Positions 51,640-63,941 of a stretch of DNA of 63,941 nt are shown one piece after another (position 1 is the first letter of the stretch; each line of letters opens with the position of its first letter). The stretch comes from Verrucomicrobiota bacterium (GTDB lineage Bacteria; Verrucomicrobiota; Verrucomicrobiia; Limisphaerales; PALSA-1396), in the NCBI GenBank assembly GCA_016200005.1, contig JACQFP010000017.1, positions 1 to 63,941 on the forward strand, in the 5' to 3' direction. The translations under genes were made by a program, and so were the position numbers. Below the pieces are notes generated by a model. It did not search any database. It saw only the letters and a list, made by a program, of their open reading frames with translations, and was not told where the DNA came from.

Positions 51640-53076
51640 ATGGGCAGACTCGCAAATCGAACCAGTATTGCCACACTGACGCTCCTGTTGGCGTTGGCGT
51701 CTGGCTGTGTTCACTACAAGCCGAAGCCGCTCGCGCCGACTCAGTTCATCAGTAATCTCGAATCACGCACGCTCACCGATGGAGGCTTGCGAGCGTTCAT
51801 CGAGACGAATGCACCGGAGGCCGCGAAGGATTGGCCGCGCCGGTCGTGGGATTTGTCCACGCTCACGCTGGTTGCGTTTTACTTTCATCCAAGCCTCGAC
51901 GTGGCGCGGGCAAACGTCGGCGTGGCGGAGGCGGGCGTCATCACGGCGGGTGGGCGGCCCAATCCGGCCTTGTCATGGTCGCCGCAATACAGCGCCAATT
52001 CTCCCGGCGGTGTCTCGCCGTGGACGCTTGGATTCAATCTCGACATCCCGATTGAGACGGCAGGCAAACGCGGGTATCGCATCGCGCACGCGAAACAACT
52101 CACCGAAGCGGCGCGGCTGAAAATCGCCGAGACGGGTTGGAAGGTGCGGAGCGCCGTTCGCGCGGCGCTCTTGGAACACTTGCTGACGCGACGTGACATC
52201 GAATTGCTGCACACCGAAATCACCGCCCGCTCGAACGTGGTTCAATTGATGGAGCGGCGGTTTGCCGTCGGCGAAGTGTCGCGCACGGAAGTGGACGCGG
52301 CGCGGACGCAACTGGTGCAAACGCGCGTGGCCCTGCGGGCGGCGGAGGGGCGCGTGCAGGAAAGCCGCGTCGCTATTGCCACGGCGCTCGGCGTCACGCC
52401 ATCCGCTGTTGAGAGCGCGAGCTTCGACTGGCCCGACTTGGAGAAGTTGCCAGGTGAGCAATCTCTCTCTGTCGAAACCGTTCAGACGGCTGGGCTGCTC
52501 AATCGCCTTGACGTGCGCGGCGCTCTCGCGGACTACGCGGCAACCGAGCGGGCGTTGCAACTCGAAATCGCCAGGCAATATCCCGACGTGCATTTGCAGC
52601 CCGGTTACACATTTGACCGGGGCGAGAATAGATTCGCGTTCGGCCTGTCGGTCGAGTTGCCGGTGCTCAACCAGAACCAAGGCCCGATTGCCGAAGCGAC
52701 GGCGCGCCGCGAGAAAGCCGCCGCCGATTTTCTCGCCTTGCAGGCGCAAATCATCGGTGAGCTTCACAAGGCCCGCGCTCAATTCCAGGCGGCGCTGGCC
52801 GAGTTGAAGGAAGTCGAAACTTCTTTGACCGAACTTCAAGACCGCACGGAGAAGCTCACGCGACGCGCCGTGGAACTTGGCGAAGCCGACCGGCTGGCGC
52901 TGGCGAGTGTGCAACTGCAACGACTCCTCGTGGCGCGGGCGCGGCTCAATGCGCTGCGCCGGGCGCAGACGGCGCTCGGTGCGCTTGAAGACGCAGTGCA
53001 ACGTCCACTCGCGCCAGCGACCGCACTGCCCGCAGTTCCACTCATGCAGCATCGCGAAGCTAAGGAATCGAAATGA
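51640..53076 (+). CDS. TolC/CzcC-like outer membrane efflux lipoprotein
   Basis: 478 aa. Lipobox LLLALASGC (Cys near residue 23). Two related halves of long helices are visible, the TolC repeat: SLDVARANVGVAEAGVITAG with PNPALSWSPQYS and GFNLDIPIETAGKRGYRIAH, then LDVRGALADYAATERALQLE with YPDVHLQPGYTFDRGENRF and VELPVLNQNQGPIAEATARR. This is the outer-membrane duct of a tripartite exporter; CzcC is the closest type. Its stop overlaps the start of the membrane fusion protein by ATGA (53073-53076). Confidence 0.9.
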   Translation: MGRLANRTSIATLTLLLALASGCVHYKPKPLAPTQFISNLESRTLTDGGLRAFIETNAPEAAKDWPRRSWDLSTLTLVAFYFHPSLDVARANVGVAEAGVITAGGRPNPALSWSPQYSANSPGGVSPWTLGFNLDIPIETAGKRGYRIAHAKQLTEAARLKIAETGWKVRSAVRAALLEHLLTRRDIELLHTEITARSNVVQLMERRFAVGEVSRTEVDAARTQLVQTRVALRAAEGRVQESRVAIATALGVTPSAVESASFDWPDLEKLPGEQSLSVETVQTAGLLNRLDVRGALADYAATERALQLEIARQYPDVHLQPGYTFDRGENRFAFGLSVELPVLNQNQGPIAEATARREKAAADFLALQAQIIGELHKARAQFQAALAELKEVETSLTELQDRTEKLTRRAVELGEADRLALASVQLQRLLVARARLNALRRAQTALGALEDAVQRPLAPATALPAVPLMQHREAKESK

Positions 53077-54107
53077 AGAAACCTATCAAGTGGCTCATCG
53101 GGATCGTAGCCGTGGTTGGCATCGTTGGCGGCCTGACCTTCGCCTTCGTCGAAGGTCGTAAAGAAATGGCGCGCGAGCGTGAGCGAGAAAAACCAGTAAA
53201 GACTCCACCGCGCACCAGCCGGACGCCCGGCGGCGAAGCCGTCATCAAGCTCGATGCCGAAACCCGCCAGCGCGTCACGATTGCCGTTGCGCCGCTGGCG
53301 GCGGCCACGCACGCGCCGGAAGTAAAGGCGTTCGGCAGTGTGCTTGATCCCGCGCCCCTGCTGGCGCTGCACGGCGAACTCGTCGCCGCCGAAGTCGCGC
53401 TGACCAATTCCACCGCGCAATACCAGCGCACCAAGGCGCTGTTCGAGGACGACCAGAACGCCTCGCGTCGCGCGCTTGATGCCGCGGAGGCGCAGCAACG
53501 CACCGATTCCGCCCGGCTGCTCAACGCCCAGCAACGCTGGACGCTCGCCACGGGAGACGCCGCCGCGAAGATGAATTCAGCCGAACGCGACCAGTTCGTG
53601 ACGAAACTCGTGAACCGCGAACTCGCGCTCATTCGTGTCGAAGTTCCTCCCGGCGACAAGTTGGTTTCGCCAACCGGCGGTCGCGTCACGTTGCAGGGCG
53701 ATGAAGACCAGTCCATCACCGTTCGCTCGGTTTACTCCGCTCCCACCGTGGACGAGAAGACGCGCGGTCAAGCTTCCCTGCTCGTCGTGGAACAGCCCGG
53801 CCCGCGTCTGCGTCCCGGCGCAGTGGCGACCGCGTTCTTCAAGTTGCCCGGCGACGAGGCGAGCGGCGTGATGTTGCCTTCGCGCGCGGTGGTCCGCGCG
53901 GCGGGACTGGCGTGGGCTTACGTGCAAACGGCAGAGAATGAATTCACGCGCCGCGAAGTTTCCACCAGCGCGCCGATGCCGGACGGCTGGTTCGTGACCA
54001 AGAACTTCAAACCCGGCGAGCAAGTCGTCGTGACCGGCGCGCAGACGTTGCTTTCCGAAGAATTCAAATCGCAAATCAGCGTGGGCGACGAAGCGGAGAA
54101 ACAGTAA
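53073..54107 (+). CDS. CzcB/HlyD-type membrane fusion protein
   Basis: 344 aa. One N-terminal membrane helix (WLIGIVAVVGIVGGLTFAFV) and a basic linker precede the adaptor domains: KLDAETRQRVTIAVAPLAA, a helical hairpin (LVAAEVALTNSTAQYQRTKA to LLNAQQRWTLATGD), LVSPTGGRVTLQGDEDQSIT and the C-terminal barrel (AVVRAAGLAWAYVQTAENEF, FKPGEQVVVTGAQTLLSEEF). The lipoyl half-motifs are weaker than usual. It links the RND pump to the outer membrane channel. Stop and start overlap with the next gene in TAATG. Confidence 0.88.
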   Translation: MKKPIKWLIGIVAVVGIVGGLTFAFVEGRKEMAREREREKPVKTPPRTSRTPGGEAVIKLDAETRQRVTIAVAPLAAATHAPEVKAFGSVLDPAPLLALHGELVAAEVALTNSTAQYQRTKALFEDDQNASRRALDAAEAQQRTDSARLLNAQQRWTLATGDAAAKMNSAERDQFVTKLVNRELALIRVEVPPGDKLVSPTGGRVTLQGDEDQSITVRSVYSAPTVDEKTRGQASLLVVEQPGPRLRPGAVATAFFKLPGDEASGVMLPSRAVVRAAGLAWAYVQTAENEFTRREVSTSAPMPDGWFVTKNFKPGEQVVVTGAQTLLSEEFKSQISVGDEAEKQ

Positions 54108-54727
54108 TGAAATCGGCAACAAAGACAGGATTGGGTTTTCGCAACCGGGGAGCCATTGGAGTCGCGTTGCTCGGTCCGGCGACCGTCGTTACCGTCATCT
54201 CAACCCCGGTGATTGCTGAGAGCACATGGTTAGACCCTGCCGTGGACCTGTTGGCTTGGGGCGTGTTCATTCTAGGATTGTTTTTCAGGATTTGGGGCAC
54301 GCTGTATGTCGGAGCGCGCAAACTCCACACCTTGGTCAGCGAAGGCCCGTATTCGATTTGCCGGAATCCGTTGTATGTGGGTTCTTTTTTGGTCGCGGTT
54401 TCAGCCGGGCTATTTCTCAAGAGCCTGATATTCGCTGCCGCGTTGGGATTCGCAATGGCCGCCTACGTCTGGGCCACCGTTCCCGCCGAAGAAAGACAAC
54501 TGCGCGAAACGCTTGGGCCAGCCTACGACGAGTATTGCAAAAATGTGCCTCGCTACTGGCCGCGCTTCTCCCTGTTTCATACACCCGAAACTGTTGAGGT
54601 GAAAGTCAAAGGACTGCGTATGGAACTCAAACGGGTTCTGGTCTGGATTTGGCTTCCGTTTCTTGGCGAGCTCATCGCCCATTTGCGCGTCGAGCCGTGG
54701 TGGCCGCATTTGTTTCATCTTCCATAG
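54107..54727 (+). CDS. Isoprenylcysteine/phospholipid methyltransferase-like membrane protein
   Basis: 206 aa, embedded between the fusion-protein and RND-pump genes. Hydrophobic segments and the ICMT/PEMT-like signature are clear: GPYSICRNPLYVGSFLVAVS (the RNPLY motif of the cofactor site), then YVWATVPAEERQLRETLG-PAYDEYCKNVPRYWP with the EE and Y...Y..VPR pattern. Members methylate isoprenyl-cysteine or lipid head groups using S-adenosylmethionine; proteins of this type are often next to heavy-metal efflux genes with unknown roles. It begins at the A of the TAATG overlap. Confidence 0.85.
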   Translation: MKSATKTGLGFRNRGAIGVALLGPATVVTVISTPVIAESTWLDPAVDLLAWGVFILGLFFRIWGTLYVGARKLHTLVSEGPYSICRNPLYVGSFLVAVSAGLFLKSLIFAAALGFAMAAYVWATVPAEERQLRETLGPAYDEYCKNVPRYWPRFSLFHTPETVEVKVKGLRMELKRVLVWIWLPFLGELIAHLRVEPWWPHLFHLP

Positions 54728-54746
54728 CCAATCCCTGGATTCACTC

Positions 54747-57700
54747 ATGCTCAACGCCATCGTTCGCTTCTCTCTCCGGTTTCGCGGCGTCGTCATTGCG
54801 CTGGCGTGCGCGCTTGTGGCCTACGGGCTTTACGTGACGACGCGCGCCAAGCTCGACGTGTTCCCGGATTTCCTGCCGCCGCAGGTCGTCATTCAAGCCG
54901 AAGCGCCCGGTCTCTCCGCTGAAGAAGTCGAGCAGCTCGTCACGCGCCCGGTTGAGAACGCCATCAACGGCGTCGGCGATCTCGACGCGCTACGCTCGCA
55001 ATCCATCCAGGGTCTCTCGGTCGTCACCGCCATTTTCCGCGACGGCACGGACATTTACCGGGCGCGGCAACTCGTCGCCGAACGCCTCGCCGAAATCAGC
55101 GGCAAACTCCCGTCCGGCCTGCCGCCGCCCCGCATGTCCCCGCTGACTTCCTCGACGAGCATGGTGCTGGCGTTCGGTCTGACTTCAACCAACCGTTCGC
55201 TGATGGAGCTTCGCACGTTCGCCGACGCGGTGTTGCAGCCGCGCCTGCTCGGCGTGCCGGGCGTGGCGAAGGTGTCCGTGTTCGGCGGCGAAGTGCGGCA
55301 ATTGCAAATCCAGGTGAACCCCGAGCGTCTGCGCGCGTTCAATCTCTCGCTTGACGACATCGTGAGCGCGGCCCGGAACGCGACGGGCAAACGCGGCGCG
55401 GGCTTTGTGGAAGACGAGAACCAGCGCATCACACTGCGCAGTGAGGGCGCGCTCCTGACGGCGCAACAACTCGGCGAAGTCGTCTTCGCGCATCACGCGG
55501 GGCGCAGCTTGCGGTTCAAGGACGTGGCGACGGTGACAGAAGGGCCAGAACCGCCCATCGGCGCGGCGTCCATCATGGGCAAGCCTGGCATTCAACTCGT
55601 GGTGTCCAGCCAACTCGGTGCGAACACGATGGAAGTGACAAAACAACTCGAACGTGCGCTGGACGAACTCAAACCCGCGATGGCCGCGCAGAAAATCACC
55701 TTGCACGAACGGCTGTTCCGCCCCGCGAACTTCATTGAGACGGCCATCCGCAATGTGCGCTTCTCGCTCCTGCTCGGCGGCGTGCTTGTGGCCGTGGTGC
55801 TGTTTCTGTTTCTCGCCAACTTCCGCACGGCGGCAATTTCGTTCACAGCAATTCCGCTATCGTTGCTTGGCGCGGTCATCGTCCTCGACAAGCTCGGCAT
55901 CTCGCTGAACACGCTCACACTCGGCGGGCTGGCCATTGCCATCGGCGAGGTTGTGGACGACGCCATCATTGATGTGGAAAACATCCTGCGCCGCCTGCGC
56001 GAAAACGCCGCGAGTGCCGCGCCCAAGCCAGTATTTCAAGTCGTGCTCGATGCGTCCCTCGAAGTCCGCACCGCCGTCGTTTACGCCACGTTTATCGTCG
56101 CGCTGGTGTTCGTGCCGGTGCTCGCGATGGGCGGCATCCAGGGCAAACTCTTTTCGCCCCTGGGCCTCGCTTACATTCTGGCCATCATGATTTCGCTGGT
56201 CGTCGCGCTCACCCTGACGCCCGCGATGGCCTTCGCTTTCTTCCACAAGAAGCTGCCGAGTCGCGGCGAGCCGGGCTACATGCTCAAGCTCAAAAGCGGT
56301 TATCGCAATCTGGTCGCGCGCATCATGGCTTACCCACGTCGCGTCATCGCGGGGGTCACAGTGATGAGTCTGCTGGCCGTGGCAGCGCTGCCGTTCTTCG
56401 GCGGTGCGTTTCTGCCAGAACTGCGCGAGGGCCATTTCATCGTCCACATGAGCGCCGTGCCGGGAACGTCGTTGCCGGAATCGCTGCGCCTCGGCGCGGC
56501 GGTCACAGCGGAACTGCTCAAGAACCCGCACATCCGCTCTGTGGCGCAGCGCGTGGGCCGCGCGGAACTCGCGGACGACACCTGGGGATCGCACTACAGC
56601 GAGTTCAATGTGGACTTGAAGCCGCTCTCCGGCGAGGAAGGCGAGTTCGTGCAGTCGGAGATTCGTGATGCGCTCCTGAAATTCCCCGGCGTCTATTTCG
56701 CCATAAAACCGTTCCTCACCGAGCGCATCGAAGAAACGATTTCCGGCACAACCGCCGAAGTCGTCATCAAACTTTTCGGTGAAGACCTCGATCAACTTGA
56801 CGCCACGGCGCAGCAAGTCGCCCGCATCGTCGGCGGCGTTGAAGGCGCGGCGGATGTGCAGGTCGAATCACCGCCCGGCGCGCCACAACAAGTCATCAAG
56901 CTTCGGCCAGACAAATTGCGCGAGTTTGGGTTTGCGCCCGTGACTGTGCTCAACGCGATTGAAACGGCCTATCAGGGCACAGTCGTCGGCCAGACTTACG
57001 AAGGCAATCGCAGCTTTGATGTCACCGTGCTTCTCGACGCGAAATTCCGCAAGCGACCGGAAAATGTCGGTGCGCTGCTGCTCCGCAACGCCGACGGTGC
57101 GCTCGTGCCCGCCACCGCCGTCGCCGACATTTACATGGGCACGGGCCGTTACCTCATCACGCACGAAGGCGCGCGGCGTCGGCAAGGCGTGACTTGCAAC
57201 GTGCGCGGACGCGACGTGGACTCATTCGTCGCCGAAGTGCGCGACAAAGTTGCCGCCGCGTTGCCGAAAAGCGTCTATGCCGAATTCACCGGCGTGGCCG
57301 AAGCCAAAGCAGCGGCGCAACGCGACATCTTGGTTTACTCGCTGCTGCCGGCGTCGGGGTCGTGCTGCTCTTGGGCATTGCGTTTCACAACCCGCGCAAC
57401 CTGTTCCTCGTGCTGGCGAATCTGCCGTTCGCGCTCGTCGGCGGAGTGCTGGCGATTTTCTTCACCGGCGGCTGGCTCACGGTCGGATCGCTGGTCGGAC
57501 TCGTGACATTGTTCGGCATCAGCACGCGCAACTCGATCATGCTCGTCTCGCACTTCGAGCATCTCGTCATGCAGGAAGGCTGTACGTGGAATCTCGACAC
57601 CGCCTTGCGCGGTGCAGCGGAACGCTTCGTCCCCATTGTGATGACCGCGCTCGTGACCGCGCTCGGCCTCGCACCGATTGCCGCCAGTTGGGGCGAACCC

Positions 57701-57841
57701 GGCCAGGAAATCGAATCGCCAATGGCCATTGTCATTCTCGCGGGCCTCGTCACTTCCACTGTGCTGAATCTGCTCGTCCTGCCAACGCTGGCGGTGCGGT
57801 TTGGGCGTTTTGAACGAAGCGAGACCAGAACTTTGATTTGA
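54747..57841 (+). CDS. CzcA-like heavy-metal RND efflux pump, frameshifted near the C-terminus
   Basis: From the ATG at 54747 the first frame covers about 870 residues of an HME-type RND pump: FRGVVIALACALVAYGLYVT, KLDVFPDFLPPQVVIQAEAP, GLSAEEVEQLVTRPVENAIN, TLGGLAIAIGEVVDDAIIDV-ENI in TM4, and FGGAFLPELREGHFIVHMSA. Near 57338-57348 the homologous sequence moves to another frame (LAAAGVGVVLLLGIAFHNPR, then VTLFGISTRNSIMLVSHFEH, TALVTALGLAPIAA) that ends at 57841. Adding back 7 bp would give about 1033 aa, the usual family size. Without TM8-TM12 the pump should be inactive. CzcA-type pumps export divalent or monovalent heavy metals. Confidence 0.85.
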
Positions 57842-60038: not shown

Positions 60039-60229
60039 AGTTGAAGGTCAATTGCTCGGTGGCAGTTTTGTTTGCAGCGCAGGCCTCGCGCGGCTTCTGG
60101 ATGACGACATTGTAAGCGTTAATCTTCTGCTGTAAGGTTGTGGGCTTGGCGACTGCGCAGCATGAGTCGCGCGTGCGAAGATGTATCAGCTACACTAAAT
60201 GCGAGAACAGTCCGTGTAGTGTCCGTTGC

Positions 60230-61024
60230 GTGGTCACGGCCAAGACGCAATACAACCTGGCAAACGCGCGGGAATACTTTGAAGAACATCTCTGCGTCGG
60301 GGATTACTACGATGAAGGCCAGCGGGTGTCCGGTGAATGGTTTGGCCTCGGTGCGCAACGTCTCGGTTTAGCCGGCAGAATCCGCGCGGATGATTTTCTC
60401 CGGCTGTGCGAGAACGAGCATCCGTCTTCCGGCGAGACGCTGACTCAACGGTTGAATACGACGCGGATGGAAGGTGGCGAGAACGCGGCCAATCGCCGGA
60501 TATTCTTCGACTTCACTTTCTCTCCGCCGAAGTCGGTTTCCATCGCGGGATTCCTGGGCAACGACGAACGGATTCTTGAAGCCCATGCGCGAGCCGTGCG
60601 GACGGCATTGAAAGAATTTGAGTCGTTTGCAGCGACTCGCATCCGCGTCGGTGGAGCACAGAGCGACCGGCTCACGGGCAACTTCGCCGCCGCCTTGTTC
60701 ACGCACGATACGTCGCGCGCGCTCGATCCGCATTTGCACACGCACTGCATCGTATTCAACGCCACTTTTGACGCGGTTGAGAATCGCTGGAAGGCGCTGC
60801 AAAACTACGAACTGTTGCGCGCCAGAAAGTTTGCCGAGAACGCCTACTATCACGAATTCGCCCGTGAGTTGCGGAGTTTCGGCTATCGAATTCGCAACCT
60901 GCCGCGCGGCGATTTTCAAATGGAGGGTGTTCCCGAAGAACTCTGCCAACGCTTTTCTGCGTGCCTCGAAAACCGGACAGACAAAGCGCCGCCCCAACAC
61001 CTATACGGTGAGGCACTCAACTGA
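60230..61024 (+). CDS. MobF (TrwC-like) relaxase, N-terminal fragment
   Basis: 264 aa from a GTG at 60230. It has the TrwC relaxase domain pattern: YNLANAREYFEEHLCVGDYY (candidate catalytic Tyr), IFFDFTFSPPKSVSIAGFLG and the three-histidine metal site H168/H170/H172 in ALDPHLHTHCIVFNATF, then KFAENAYYHEFARELRSFGY. Full MobF relaxases have about 900-1000 residues with a C-terminal helicase; here the frame ends right after the relaxase domain, inside one arm of an inverted repeat. The upstream gap 60039-60229 holds no gene. The domain could still nick DNA but not unwind it. Confidence 0.8.
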   Translation: MVTAKTQYNLANAREYFEEHLCVGDYYDEGQRVSGEWFGLGAQRLGLAGRIRADDFLRLCENEHPSSGETLTQRLNTTRMEGGENAANRRIFFDFTFSPPKSVSIAGFLGNDERILEAHARAVRTALKEFESFAATRIRVGGAQSDRLTGNFAAALFTHDTSRALDPHLHTHCIVFNATFDAVENRWKALQNYELLRARKFAENAYYHEFARELRSFGYRIRNLPRGDFQMEGVPEELCQRFSACLENRTDKAPPQHLYGEALN

Positions 61025-61105
61025 TGTTCCAGAAACGCCGCTCCACACTCCACACGTTTTCAATTTGGTTCCGCTCCGTTTTCTGGAACATCAGTTCAGT
61101 GCTCA
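61009..61105. repeat. Long inverted repeat at the relaxase 3' end
   Basis: Arms of 29 nt (61009-61037 and 61077-61105) are inverted copies with two small indels and about one mismatch; the core AACTGATGTTCCAGA is perfect. The 39-bp spacer is unstructured. The relaxase stop TGA (61022-61024) is inside the left arm. Could be a terminator-like hairpin, a relaxase-binding oriT hairpin, or the end of a small inserted element. Confidence 0.7.
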
Positions 61106-61200
61106 GAGACGCGAGTCCGCCACGTACCCATCACTGCCAAATCCTCACGAAACCACATCCGCTCAAAACGCTTGCGGCTCAATTTTGAGCCAATGGTTTT

Positions 61201-61256
61201 GCATCCTATGTGGATGCTTAAAGGTGTGACGCCTCACCCCTACGCGAAAACGTAGG
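61201..61256. other. Two small hairpins in the oriT-like region
   Basis: GCATCC-tatgt-GGATGC (61201-61217) and CCTACG-cgaaaa-CGTAGG (61239-61256), with GGTG/CACC pairing between them. Together with the flanking inverted repeat and hexamer arrays they fill the gap between the relaxase and TraK-like genes, the usual place and look of an origin of transfer. No nic consensus was recognised. Confidence 0.45.
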
Positions 61257-61291
61257 ATTTTTGGCTACGCGCCGGGCACACGAAACATCGT

Positions 61292-61379
61292 GTTGAAAAG
61301 CGTTGAAGGGCGTTGACAGATTCAACGTCACTCAACAGATTTCAATGGCGCGATTCAACGCGCTTCAATGCCTTTCAAC
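61292..61379. repeat. Three triplets of a hexamer at 10-bp period
   Basis: GTTGA(A/C) starts at 61292, 61302 and 61312. The reverse-complement form (T/C)TCAA(C/T) starts at 61321, 61331 and 61341 and again at 61354, 61364 and 61374. Each triplet has exact 10-bp spacing, so all sites of a triplet face the same side of the helix. The first two triplets form an inverted pair. Located about 100 bp upstream of the TraK-like gene; a likely multi-site binding region of that protein. Confidence 0.8.
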
Positions 61380-61479
61380 AAGGCAGCCTGGCCGCTGGCC
61401 TTAACTCTCCCGCAATTCTGTTTAACCCGCCCACTACTCGCTAACGCGGAGAGCGCCGTGCGTCATACGCTGTTGGTTG

Positions 61480-61872
61480 ATGAATTCGGAAACCGTGAAT
61501 GACGCCCTGCCGGTGAAGCGAAAACGATCCGGAGGCGGACGAGCCTTTCATAGTCGGCTCGAACCGTTCGTGGATTTCATCCGTGAACAGCGTCAGCGAC
61601 GCAGGACGTGGAAGGAAATCGCCGAGCTGCTCCGCGCAGAGAAGGGTTGTGTCATCAGTGCCCAGGGTGTCCATCAGTTCTGGCGTCGTTACACCCAGCG
61701 CCAGAACCGGCCGCATTGGGAACGCGAGACGGACAATGCCGCACCAACCAATTCGTCCGGTTCAGCGAACGAACCACCGCGAAGAATTGTGACCGCCTCC
61801 ACTCCGGCAGAGCGCGCATTCCGGCGACCGAATCCCAGCGACATTAAACTCAACGATCCCACCAAAGTATGA
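61480..61872 (+). CDS. TraK-like small DNA-binding protein, copy 2
   Basis: 130 aa from the ATG at 61480. Basic N-terminus (LPVKRKRSGGGRAFHSRLEP), then a helical segment FVDFIREQRQRRRTWKEIAE-LL and SAQGVHQFWRRYTQRQNRP, which reads as a helix-turn-helix, then a Pro/Ser-rich tail. In plan it parallels the 45212-45643 protein. It overlaps the next gene by ATGA (61869-61872), the same coupling as in the first module. The role proposed is oriT binding in relaxosome assembly; the hexamer array lies just upstream. Confidence 0.6.
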   Translation: MNSETVNDALPVKRKRSGGGRAFHSRLEPFVDFIREQRQRRRTWKEIAELLRAEKGCVISAQGVHQFWRRYTQRQNRPHWERETDNAAPTNSSGSANEPPRRIVTASTPAERAFRRPNPSDIKLNDPTKV

Positions 61873-62690
61873 ACATCACTCGACGCATCCACTTGAACCC
61901 TCAATCCAAAGGCAATCTCGGCAAAAGTTTTGAAGCCGAATTCCGCACCGCCTGGCTCGACCGGCTCGGCATCCCGTGGAACGGCTCAGACCTCGACGAC
62001 CGCCACCACACGTTTGCCAGTCGGCATCCCGGCGCAGTTCAGTCGTATCAACTCGGCAATGAGCACGAGAGCAAGACAGCGTTGCTTAAACTGTTTCGAC
62101 GGGTGCTCAAAGACGCTGCGCCCGTCCACGTCATTGACACCCGTGCCCAGGCCGATGCGCTCATCCTCGGCGCGATGGACGAACTGCAAGTCCTCGACAT
62201 TTGTGCCGACCATGGTGTGCGGCTGACGTTCTTTCTGTTTCCCACTGACGATACCGAGAGCATGACCAACGCTGGGCGACTCTTTCTCTACGCCGGCGAC
62301 CGCGTGGATTACGTGATCGTTCACAATCCGGCCAAGGCGCGCGGCGATTTGTTCAAAGGCTCGCAACTGGAAAGCCAACTGATTGAGTATGGGGCGAAGG
62401 CCATCACGTTGCCGACCATCACTCCAACAACTTTGCTCGCGGCGGAAAAGGCTGAATCAGTGGTCAAACGTGGCTTGAGTTTTGCCGAGCTATCCGACCC
62501 GGACGCGAAATACTTGGAACGCCTGCTGGCAGGAGAAATCCAATGGGCGATGCAGCGAATGTTTCGGCAGTATGACGCGATTGCCGATCTGTTGCTGCCG
62601 ACCGAATTAGCTTCGCGGGAAAAGCCTGTTGCGAGAGCGAACGAAAGTCCAAAAGCAGAGCCGCAACCACAACTCAACTTCGAGGAATGA
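61869..62690 (+). CDS. TraL-like P-loop protein with altered Walker A
   Basis: 273 aa. The strand-loop at residues 3-21 (ITRRIHLNPQSKGNLGKS) aligns with the ParA-type N-terminus, but the loop reads KGNLGKS instead of KGGVGKS. Further blocks fit the same fold: APVHVIDTRAQADALILGAM, GVRLTFFLFPTDDTESMTNA, VDYVIVHNPAKARGDLF. The C-terminus IADLLLPTE resembles that of the first-module ATPase (44523-45215), supporting common descent. The Asn change may alter ATP binding. GAGGAA at its stop is the ribosome-binding site of the next gene. Confidence 0.7.
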   Translation: MNITRRIHLNPQSKGNLGKSFEAEFRTAWLDRLGIPWNGSDLDDRHHTFASRHPGAVQSYQLGNEHESKTALLKLFRRVLKDAAPVHVIDTRAQADALILGAMDELQVLDICADHGVRLTFFLFPTDDTESMTNAGRLFLYAGDRVDYVIVHNPAKARGDLFKGSQLESQLIEYGAKAITLPTITPTTLLAAEKAESVVKRGLSFAELSDPDAKYLERLLAGEIQWAMQRMFRQYDAIADLLLPTELASREKPVARANESPKAEPQPQLNFEE

Positions 62691-62693
62691 CGT

Positions 62694-63266
62694 ATGGACC
62701 GGACTGAATTTGATATTCTGTGCGAGGGAGCAAGCGCGGAAGAAACCCGGCTCTTGTCGAAACTGCTGGCCGAATGGTGCGATGGCGATGAACGCTCGTT
62801 CCCCGTTCATCTCGCCCTGCTCACAAGGGCGCAATGGCGGGCGGCTGCCAGCGTGCCCCGGTCAGTTGACCAGTCACGGGAAATCTTGGAGCGGACATTC
62901 AGCGAGCATCGGCAACACATCATTGGTCTCGTGAAAAGCTTCGAGGAAGCGACCGAAGCGAAGTTGCAAGCCTTGGAAAAATCTCAGACCGCGCAAGCAC
63001 GGCAGGCTGGCGAGTCCGTGGAAACATTGCGCTCGCAACTGGCCGAAGTCAGAGCCGTGGCAAAATTGATGGAAGGCGACTTGCGGACTGGTGCGGAAGA
63101 ATGGCATCGGGCGCATCAGCAGTTCGAGACGGAACGCCGCAAACTCGACACTGCCTTGGGGGCGATGAACCAATACTGGGACATTCAGCAATTGGTTTTC
63201 ACAGGATTGTTGTTACTGGCCGCGTGCGGCATCGGCCTTTTGATTGGTCATTTTGTCTGGCGCTGA
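62694..63266 (+). CDS. TraM-like coiled-coil protein with C-terminal membrane anchor
   Basis: 190 aa, preceded by a clear ribosome-binding site (GAGGAA, 6 bp before the ATG). The N-terminal part is MDRTEFDILCEGASAEETRL with LSKLLAEWCDG. The middle (about 60-150) is a long charged helix or coiled coil (VKSFEEATEAKLQALEKSQT, ETLRSQLAEVRAVAKLMEGD). A single membrane helix ends the protein (LVFTGLLLLAACGIGLLIGH). In gene order it takes the place of TraM in IncP-like traKLM sets. Sequence alone does not prove that identity. Confidence 0.65.
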   Translation: MDRTEFDILCEGASAEETRLLSKLLAEWCDGDERSFPVHLALLTRAQWRAAASVPRSVDQSREILERTFSEHRQHIIGLVKSFEEATEAKLQALEKSQTAQARQAGESVETLRSQLAEVRAVAKLMEGDLRTGAEEWHRAHQQFETERRKLDTALGAMNQYWDIQQLVFTGLLLLAACGIGLLIGHFVWR

Positions 63267-63274
63267 CTTCACCG

Positions 63275-63291
63275 TTCCGGCATCGCCGGAA
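63275..63291. terminator. 7-3-7 palindrome just after the TraM-like gene
   Basis: TTCCGGC-ATC-GCCGGAA is a perfect hairpin 9 bp after the stop codon of the last gene of the plus-strand module. No T-tract follows, so it is terminator-like rather than a proven terminator. Confidence 0.4.
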
Positions 63292-63941
63292 ACCCACCGG
63301 AACCAGCGCGCGCTCCGCACCGTGATCGCACCCCGCCGCCCGTGCGTTCACTCTGCTCCGCGCGCGTTCGTTCCGGTTTGAGAATCACGCAGTCGCGTAG
63401 CGCTTCCGTTGGAAGCTTGGCGCCGGTCTCTCCGCTTTTTCCGCCATTCCGCCAGACGCTTCATGGCGGGACCGCTCCGTTTCCCGGCAGCCAACATCCC
63501 ATCACTACGTTCCCGAACGTAACCGCCACTGACTTGGTTGGCTCGGGAAATTTGGACAGCGCACGCCCCCCTTCACCATGAGTAAAACAGGCATTAGCCG
63601 TTTGCCACGGATGTCCGGCAATCCCCGAGTCCTTCCTCTGGAGCGACTTAGTTTTTCGCGCATTTCTAAGTATTCGGCTCACGCCATCGGTTTCCAAACA
63701 GCCGTTGACACCTGTTCATGTCACTGTGGTGAACTTGGGTAAACCCAAGCAAAGGCGGCCAGTGCTTATTTGGGTGGTCACGACTCGGAGTGCTAATTTC
63801 CTAGGAATTTGTCGGACTTAGAATTGGGTTGCTGTGGCGGAGCCTTCTGGTGCCGTTCTGCGCCTGAGCAAAATTATTGTTACTCAACGCCACACCGTTT
63901 CCCTGCACTCTCGCAAGCGGTTCTTGACCGTTTTTCTCCCC
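63292..63941. other. Gene-free right end
   Basis: About 650 bp without a convincing gene. Short frames exist (for example from an ATG near 63579, about 54 codons) but lack a ribosome-binding site, recognisable motifs or codon-pattern support. The next gene of the element presumably starts beyond the window. Confidence 0.5.

Follow-up and report, generated by a model that had tools for sequence, protein, structure and literature searches.

Phased triplet repeats beside a MobF-type oriT core in Verrucomicrobiota: a likely cis-acting site of the TraK-like protein encoded downstream

Between a MobF relaxase gene and a traK-like gene of a Verrucomicrobiota bacterium lies a stretch of DNA (61009-61479) with inverted and evenly spaced short repeats, which raises the question of what this stretch is and which protein its repeats serve. 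The window, i.e. the whole 63,941-nucleotide stretch that was analyzed, is contig C17 of a draft genome of 6.54 Mb in 87 contigs (hereafter, L, C and G numbers denote loci, contigs and genomes). A previous sequence-only reading proposed a new type of oriT combining a MobF relaxase with an IncP-like gene order. Here, a comparative analysis of related loci was combined with analysis of the flanking genes (Table 1). We consider it probable, with good confidence, that 61009-61479 forms the side of a MobF-type oriT that faces traK, and that its phased triplets are a cis-acting site which the downstream-encoded TraK-like protein would bind and bend or wrap.

Table 1. Features of the oriT region and the adjoining genes in the window
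Feature	Position	Strand	Evidence and remarks
N-terminal MobF relaxase fragment (ORF 60140-61024)	60178-60957	+	TrwC E 9e-72; alignment with TrwC, L009 and L023
7-bp overlap GCTTTTC, junction of relaxase fragment and oriT hairpin (loop side)	60951-60957		end of one homology versus start of the other
Remnant of HP1: apical mini-stem TTTTC/GAAAA and right arm AACCGGACAGACAAAGCGCC (60971-60990); basal left arm lost	60953-60990	+	28-locus alignment, family covariation
Conserved block CACCTATACGG (family form AACCTAGACGG), candidate nic region	60998-61008	+	28-locus alignment
IR2, 23-nt arms 61013-61035 and 61080-61102, 96%	61013-61102		repeat search; similar repeat likewise placed in relatives, as judged by eye
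Small hairpin GCATCC/GGATGC	61201-61217		sequence
Small hairpin CCTACG/CGTAGG	61239-61256		sequence
Array triplet 1, GTTGA, 10-bp steps	61292-61317	+	sequence, lag test, site map
Array triplet 2, TCAAC/T, 10-bp steps, inverted versus triplet 1	61321-61346	-	sequence, lag test, site map
Array triplet 3, TCAAC/T, 10-bp steps, 13 bp after triplet 2	61354-61379	-	sequence, lag test, site map
TraK/StbA-like protein, 130 aa, predicted three-helix (HTH-like) domain; likely binder of the array	61480-61872	+	ATG 61480, TTG 61477 possible; model and alignments
TraL/StbB-like protein, 273 aa, ParA-like loop KGNLGKS	61869-62690	+	loop and homology chain
TraM/StbC-position protein, 190 aa, C-terminal hydrophobic stretch	62694-63266	+	ORF translation, comparison with relatives

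All nine hexamers described previously as three triplets with 10-bp spacing are present in the window: GTTGAA, GTTGAA and GTTGAC starting at 61292, 61302 and 61312; TTCAAC, CTCAAC and TTCAAT at 61321, 61331 and 61341; and TTCAAC, TTCAAT and TTCAAC at 61354, 61364 and 61374. The same-orientation triplets 2 and 3 additionally form a 33-bp period (10+10+13) that was absent from the previous description. The regularity was assessed by 4-mer autocorrelation in the 400 bp before the window traK against 300 dinucleotide-preserving shuffles. At lag 10, 15 shared 4-mers were observed versus 1.8 expected (z 7.8, with 0/300 shuffles as high), and lag 33 reached z 5.7 (1/300 shuffles). With at most one mismatch, the triplet pattern has four sites in the whole 6.54-Mb genome, namely the three window triplets and one stray, and a backwards control pattern has two.

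The presence of such an array upstream of homologous TraK-like genes, which the sequence-only reading had named as its check, was then examined in related loci. A scan with the TraL alignment produced 43 loci, all from Verrucomicrobia where a group is named, or 44 with the window; 37 of them were testable, having a traK match and at least 250 bp upstream, while L044, L067 and L068 were too short and L069, L071, L074 and L075 had no TraK match. Lag-10 z was above 3 before the traK-like gene in 32 of the 37 loci (window included) and in none of 36 control stretches from the traL coding sequence; the lowest values belonged to L052 (-0.7), L062 (-0.1), L059 (1.5), L061 (2.7), and L042 and L056 (both 3.0). 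Outside this pattern, a distant TraK-like match, L027, lacked an array by the lag test, the sister subgroup represented by L013 showed lags of 34, 11, 17 and 28 instead of 10, and L023, also without the 10-bp lag, showed weaker ones of 17, 57, 45 and 11. A 10-bp spacing of GAA-type words (z 4.8 and 5.5) was seen in L025, which belongs to another family of the class; by eye, these words form triplets. In L052, the traK frame is broken and the array is missing, a single case in which the array may go where traK goes.

The layout is largely common to the relatives: a head triplet is followed by an inverted triplet and then by further sites. In the site maps, these further sites follow at offsets of 12-14 bp or, as if a site had been skipped, of 23-24 bp. 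The repeat words fall into class A (GTTGA), class B (GCGAC) and class C (GCGGC), with other words in single loci. Measured by pentamer starts, the inversion step amounts to 9-10 bp for class A and to 14 bp for the other two classes; a 56-bp gap occurs in several class-B loci, and the array of four class-A loci is limited to 2+2 sites. The number of sites (4-11) and the distance to traK differ between loci. In the window, the array lies about 100-190 bp before the traK start, a position that would also suit a mere operator for autoregulation of traKLM. That the array is nothing more than this is improbable, since site number and distance to traK vary, and since L034, with 11 sites at 10- and 13-bp spacing over some 120 bp, exceeds the need of an operator.

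The array follows an oriT core that is common to 28 loci (the window and 27 others) and consists of the hairpin HP1, having the family form GGCGCTTTGACTGGCCGG...CCGGCCAGACAAATCGCC, the AACCTAGACGG block, and a second inverted repeat, IR2, which begins with GCACTCA in the family. Eight loci with a TraK match (L037, L038, L043, L044, L047, L050, L052 and L067) gave no core block match, and L042, L049, L051 and L068, all of which also have a TraK match, were dropped from the core alignment as giving chance-like block matches only. Pairing of HP1 is conserved across the 28 loci: 93.6% of cells are paired and 11 of 21 pairs show two-sided change, each value being attained by 0/500 shuffles, in a count that takes in the window row with its non-homologous left arm. 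No slid register attains the observed values for pairing or two-sided change; of the five measures, one did not exceed the shuffles, namely the count of further pair types (183/500). The common core and this covariation support the proposal that the stretch is an oriT. Both small hairpins noted previously are present as well, and the reported 29-nt inverted repeat exists as IR2, although with computed arms of 23 nt at 96% identity that can be extended to about 27-29 nt only by eye and with a bulge.

In MobF oriTs, the hairpin lies on the 5' side of nic. Because of this architecture, the AACCTAGACGG block, located 3' of the hairpin, is taken as the candidate nic region, and the nic position would fall within it by analogy. 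Further matches to the oriT hairpin arm were seen in related genomes, at G039:C247 7633-7673 and 8151-8213 and at G001:C211 13805-13843 and C40 1287-1326; two of them lie some 500 bp apart on one contig, and these matches may be orphan or tandem oriT sites.

On the other side of the core, the homology of the flanking gene to MobF relaxases, as recognized previously, is real, but the gene is not intact, and a role as the working relaxase of this oriT is not supported. The window ORF keeps the HUH His motif and the N-terminal tyrosines but has neither the final part of the relaxase domain nor the helicase, being cut at aa 274, and it runs co-directionally with traK; a complete relaxase is thus ruled out. 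Longer MobF copies with an AAA_30 helicase occur in L009 and L023. Homology to the longer MobF genes (C13 of the same genome and G041) ends at 60957, and homology to the oriT regions of relatives begins at 60951, so that the left basal arm of the window HP1 is replaced by the relaxase fragment. In 14 relatives, the contig that bears traK also carries a relaxase match (E<1e-10); the relaxase gene is upstream of and divergent from traK in 10 of them, upstream and co-directional in two (L035, L039), and downstream in two (L047, L050). One relaxase search rested on two of its three queries, the third having been reduced to 6 residues by a frame slip. The window has no divergent relaxase gene at this usual place. 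As a fragment of another MobF gene sits in the hairpin instead, this oriT has probably suffered damage in the window, unless the contig is a chimera at the junction.

We rate it just short of even that the junction is a draft assembly error and that the true left side is a divergent relaxase gene half-seen at the end of contig C80. The end of this contig, which comes from the same genome, truncates the 5' part of an L009-type relaxase gene (76% identity), the junction contains the 7-bp overlap, and no match spanning it was found in 57 related genomes; yet a microhomology-mediated rearrangement in the cell would look alike. In either case, the damage does not touch the array or traKLM, and the part of the window after the array (61415-63425) is 92.8% identical to L009. 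RND-type efflux genes of the OEP, HlyD and AcrB families lie beside the transfer region in L009 (3096-8786), and similar ORFs were recognized by eye in the window (51640-57841), which suggests metal-resistance cargo adjoining the transfer region.

The three genes after the array follow the order traK-traL-traM. Among five proteins scanned around the array, curated Pfam cut-offs were reached only by the relaxase and by the product of a MerR gene further upstream, and NCBIfam cut-offs by the relaxase only; the window TraK-like protein had no Pfam or NCBIfam match. For TraL, a chain of homology could be followed: the window protein is related to an L025 protein (E 5e-28) and to TraL of the L013 sister subgroup (E 6e-10), and the latter matches 825 plasmid records, including pRK2013 (E 4e-10), with many among the matches listed annotated as TraL. 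Directly compared by hhalign, window TraL and RP4 TraL gave 10.5%. The TraK family reached a probability of 49% (E 1.7e-4) against a profile of 16 IncP-type TraK proteins and 0.8% against R388 StbA alone. No match was found by tblastn of window TraL and TraK, or with TraK of the sister subgroup, in the plasmid collection, and no significant direct match of the window-family proteins to R388 StbA or StbB was found. The kinship to IncP TraK that goes with the IncP-like TraK/TraL order proposed earlier is weak; taken together, the weak profile match, the gene order and the TraL chain are suggestive of it.

The AlphaFold model of TraK (mean pLDDT 72.5, pTM 0.45) predicts helices at 23-39, 44-55 and 61-76. 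Foldseek returned no match with E below 3 for this model, and VIA-align listed a mixture of small helical domains with a best Z of 6.8, including many DNA-binding ones. A sequence search identified the StbA entry 7pc1, which did not appear among the matches listed by either program, and neither TraK alignment yielded a significant match in PDB profile searches. The window TraK is present in 5 of 58 relatives and in 7 of 387 genomes of the phylum, with its own genome counted in both cases and the other six matches in the phylum being weak. Sister systems with a MobF relaxase, a TraK-like protein, a ParA-like TraL and a TraM-position protein were observed in L023 (C13 of the same genome, 6148-12213) and in L013 (G041), the latter also having a TrwB-like coupling protein.

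Which protein recognizes the array is suggested by a comparison of the repeat words with the third helix of the predicted three-helix domain in 33 aligned TraK proteins, a set that leaves out L039, L044, L045 and L066 as near-copies or short and L052, L067 and L068 as fragments. This helix reads QGxHQF in class A (with one QVVHQF and one QGVHGF), APYLF in class B (with one APYLY) and APYRF or APYHF in class C. The site-map motif classes were assigned manually, with knowledge of the TraK groups, and the helix-word rule uses the best-scoring pentamer only; by this rule, helix class and pentamer agree in 30 of the 31 proteins having a class helix, the exception being L050, where the class word GTTGA ranks second. 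A single base separates the class-B word from the class-C word (TTGTCGC versus TTGCCGC), and the helices of the two classes differ by L versus R or H. In L057, L070 and L073, a class-A helix is combined with a tail resembling the B/C tail, and the class-A word is kept. L051, with another helix, has another word, AATGG. L049 has the helix FGVYRY, and its best pentamer, TTCAA, counts as class A by the rule, the next ones (CGTTC and GTTCA) being not class A; this locus does not fit the rule cleanly, which slightly lowers our confidence in the main reading.

The repeat word differs along with the recognition helix of TraK, and therefore the TraK-like protein probably binds the array; the pairing of helix and word looks like a code of protein-DNA specificity. 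In a TraK tree built without the helix columns, four changes of motif class suffice and only one independent B/C pair remains, so that the statistical independence of the match is small and helix and motif could be co-inherited by linkage. Accordingly, the proposal that the array is a TraK site gains from the joint variation of word and helix and is held back by the small number of independent changes. A bolder idea, which we offer tentatively, is an evolvable recognition code, in which changes of the TraK helix (QGxHQF, APYLF, APY[RH]F) would be accompanied by a new word (TCAAC, TTGTCGC, TTGCCGC) at every one of the 4-11 phased sites while the oriT core stays recognizably the same, so that elements sharing a host would remain distinct in relaxosome or segregation identity. 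Elements of two or three classes occur together in four draft genomes, with the reservation that metagenome drafts can be mixed: JAJXXW (L048 in class A, L061 in B, L054 in C), PLIU01 (L037, L040, L045 and L046 in A, L060 in B), PLHK01 (L076 in B, L064 in C) and JANXWY (L038 in A, L062 in C).

Short direct repeats near the operon of a mobile element could also be replication iterons, an explanation that we reject as very improbable: the inverted triplets, the words varying with the TraK helix and the linkage to the oriT core do not fit it, and no Rep-like family was found among the five proteins scanned around the array.

The closest known counterpart is R388 (IncW, MOBF), in which a MobF relaxase (TrwC) is divergent across oriT from an operon, stbABC, for a DNA-binding, a ParA-like and a third protein, and in which helically phased repeats lie between nic and the first gene of the operon. 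Most relatives of the window locus with a relaxase on the contig (10 of 14) have a like arrangement, with the TraK-like protein as the probable DNA binder. The published account of R388 (PMC3098194) describes two sets of five 9-bp repeats, 2 nt apart, bound by StbA in the stb promoter region. Used as a positive control in the lag test (with mononucleotide shuffles), R388 gave 33, 11, 44 and 22 bp; its period is 11 bp, whereas the window has triplets at 10 bp with 13 bp between them and an inverted head triplet. Because R388 has the same MobF/oriT/StbABC layout with 11-bp repeats, calling the present system an unusual hybrid was too strong.

The IncP plasmids (RP4/pRK2013, pKJK5) share the order TraK-TraL-TraM with the window; their relaxase is a MOBP TraI with TraJ, whereas the window fragment and the L009 and L023 relaxases are of the TrwC/MobF type. 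According to the same account (PMC3098194), StbA is linked to RP4 TraK after seven PSI-BLAST rounds, and RP4-type TraK is reported to bind at oriT, at a site between nic and traK. Sixteen IncP-type plasmids picked for variety were compared (a 17th, pCMS1, had too little upstream sequence), and 8 of the 16 have phased arrays before traK, with lag-10 z of at least 5 in six and lag-11 z above 5 in two. Phasing was weak in four (Nitrosomonas eutropha 3.0, Nitrosospira 3.1, pMCR3 2.7, and Novosphingobium with lag-11 3.4) and was not detected by the lag test in pRK2013, pXAM48, pALTS31 and pYS1; the RP4-type pRK2013 gave z of 2.2 and 0.6 in two tests, i.e. no clear phasing, which counts against the main reading, and pKJK5 has an 11-bp array. 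Strong 10-bp arrays (lag-10 z 6.5-18.9) precede the traK-like genes of Azospirillum p3, Xanthomonas pE, Synechocystis B12, Pseudomonas viciae and Sphingomonas pDS5. These five plasmids differ from the window family in having other words and, by eye, 10-bp runs without triplets at 13-bp offsets, and their relaxase, where annotated, is TraI/MobA(P). By locus, strong 10-bp arrays with varied words were observed at IncP-type traK genes in L033 (2709-3064) and upstream of traK in L079, L080, L082 and L088; such arrays are perhaps general for TraK sites.

The eight IncP-type plasmids rule out that phased arrays are unique to MobF systems. Since R388 and IncP-type plasmids show them, helically phased sites upstream of TraK/StbA genes are not confined to this family, and a MobF relaxase beside such an operon is already known. 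As far as could be seen, what is new is the family itself, its arrangement of sites in triplets and the way in which helix and word differ in step; an open-access literature search of limited depth found no paper on such oriT sites in Verrucomicrobiota, on this layout or helix-word match, or on phasing in the five plasmids above.

In the proposed mechanism, each pentamer would hold one HTH unit of the TraK-like protein, the 10-bp steps would set three units on one face of the DNA, and the 13-bp steps together with the inverted head triplet would set the DNA path. With the 13-bp steps, the spacing would average 11 bp per site, the value of R388. Once filled, the array would form a compact nucleoprotein beside the hairpin and nic region; wrapping of DNA by TraK is what we infer from this geometry. 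By analogy, its role would most likely resemble that of R388 StbA and the stbDRs, i.e. handling or positioning of the element with the ParA-like TraL/StbB and tuning of transfer, and the array may perhaps also regulate its own traKLM operon. In R388, deletion of stbA leads to plasmid loss and a 50-fold rise in transfer, deletion of stbB abolishes transfer, and stabilization by StbA acts via the stbDRs, as described in PMC3098194. These findings, and a ParA-like protein encoded next to the TraK-like one, give some room to a possible, less favored account, compatible with the main reading, in which the array is mainly a centromere-like segregation site having little to do with transfer; its close linkage to the oriT core in the 28 aligned loci speaks against so small a part in transfer.

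To our knowledge, the organization of DNA next to nic by TraK/StbA-type proteins has been little worked out beyond R388 and RP4. The family comprises more than 30 natural arrays that largely agree in layout, use several words and each adjoin the gene of their own protein. They provide a ready comparison set for dissecting the contributions of the 10-bp step, the 13-bp step and the recognition helix, and for asking whether co-resident elements are kept apart by array identity. In addition, the combination of hairpin, AACCTAGACGG block and phased array offers a marker for oriT in uncultured Verrucomicrobiota.
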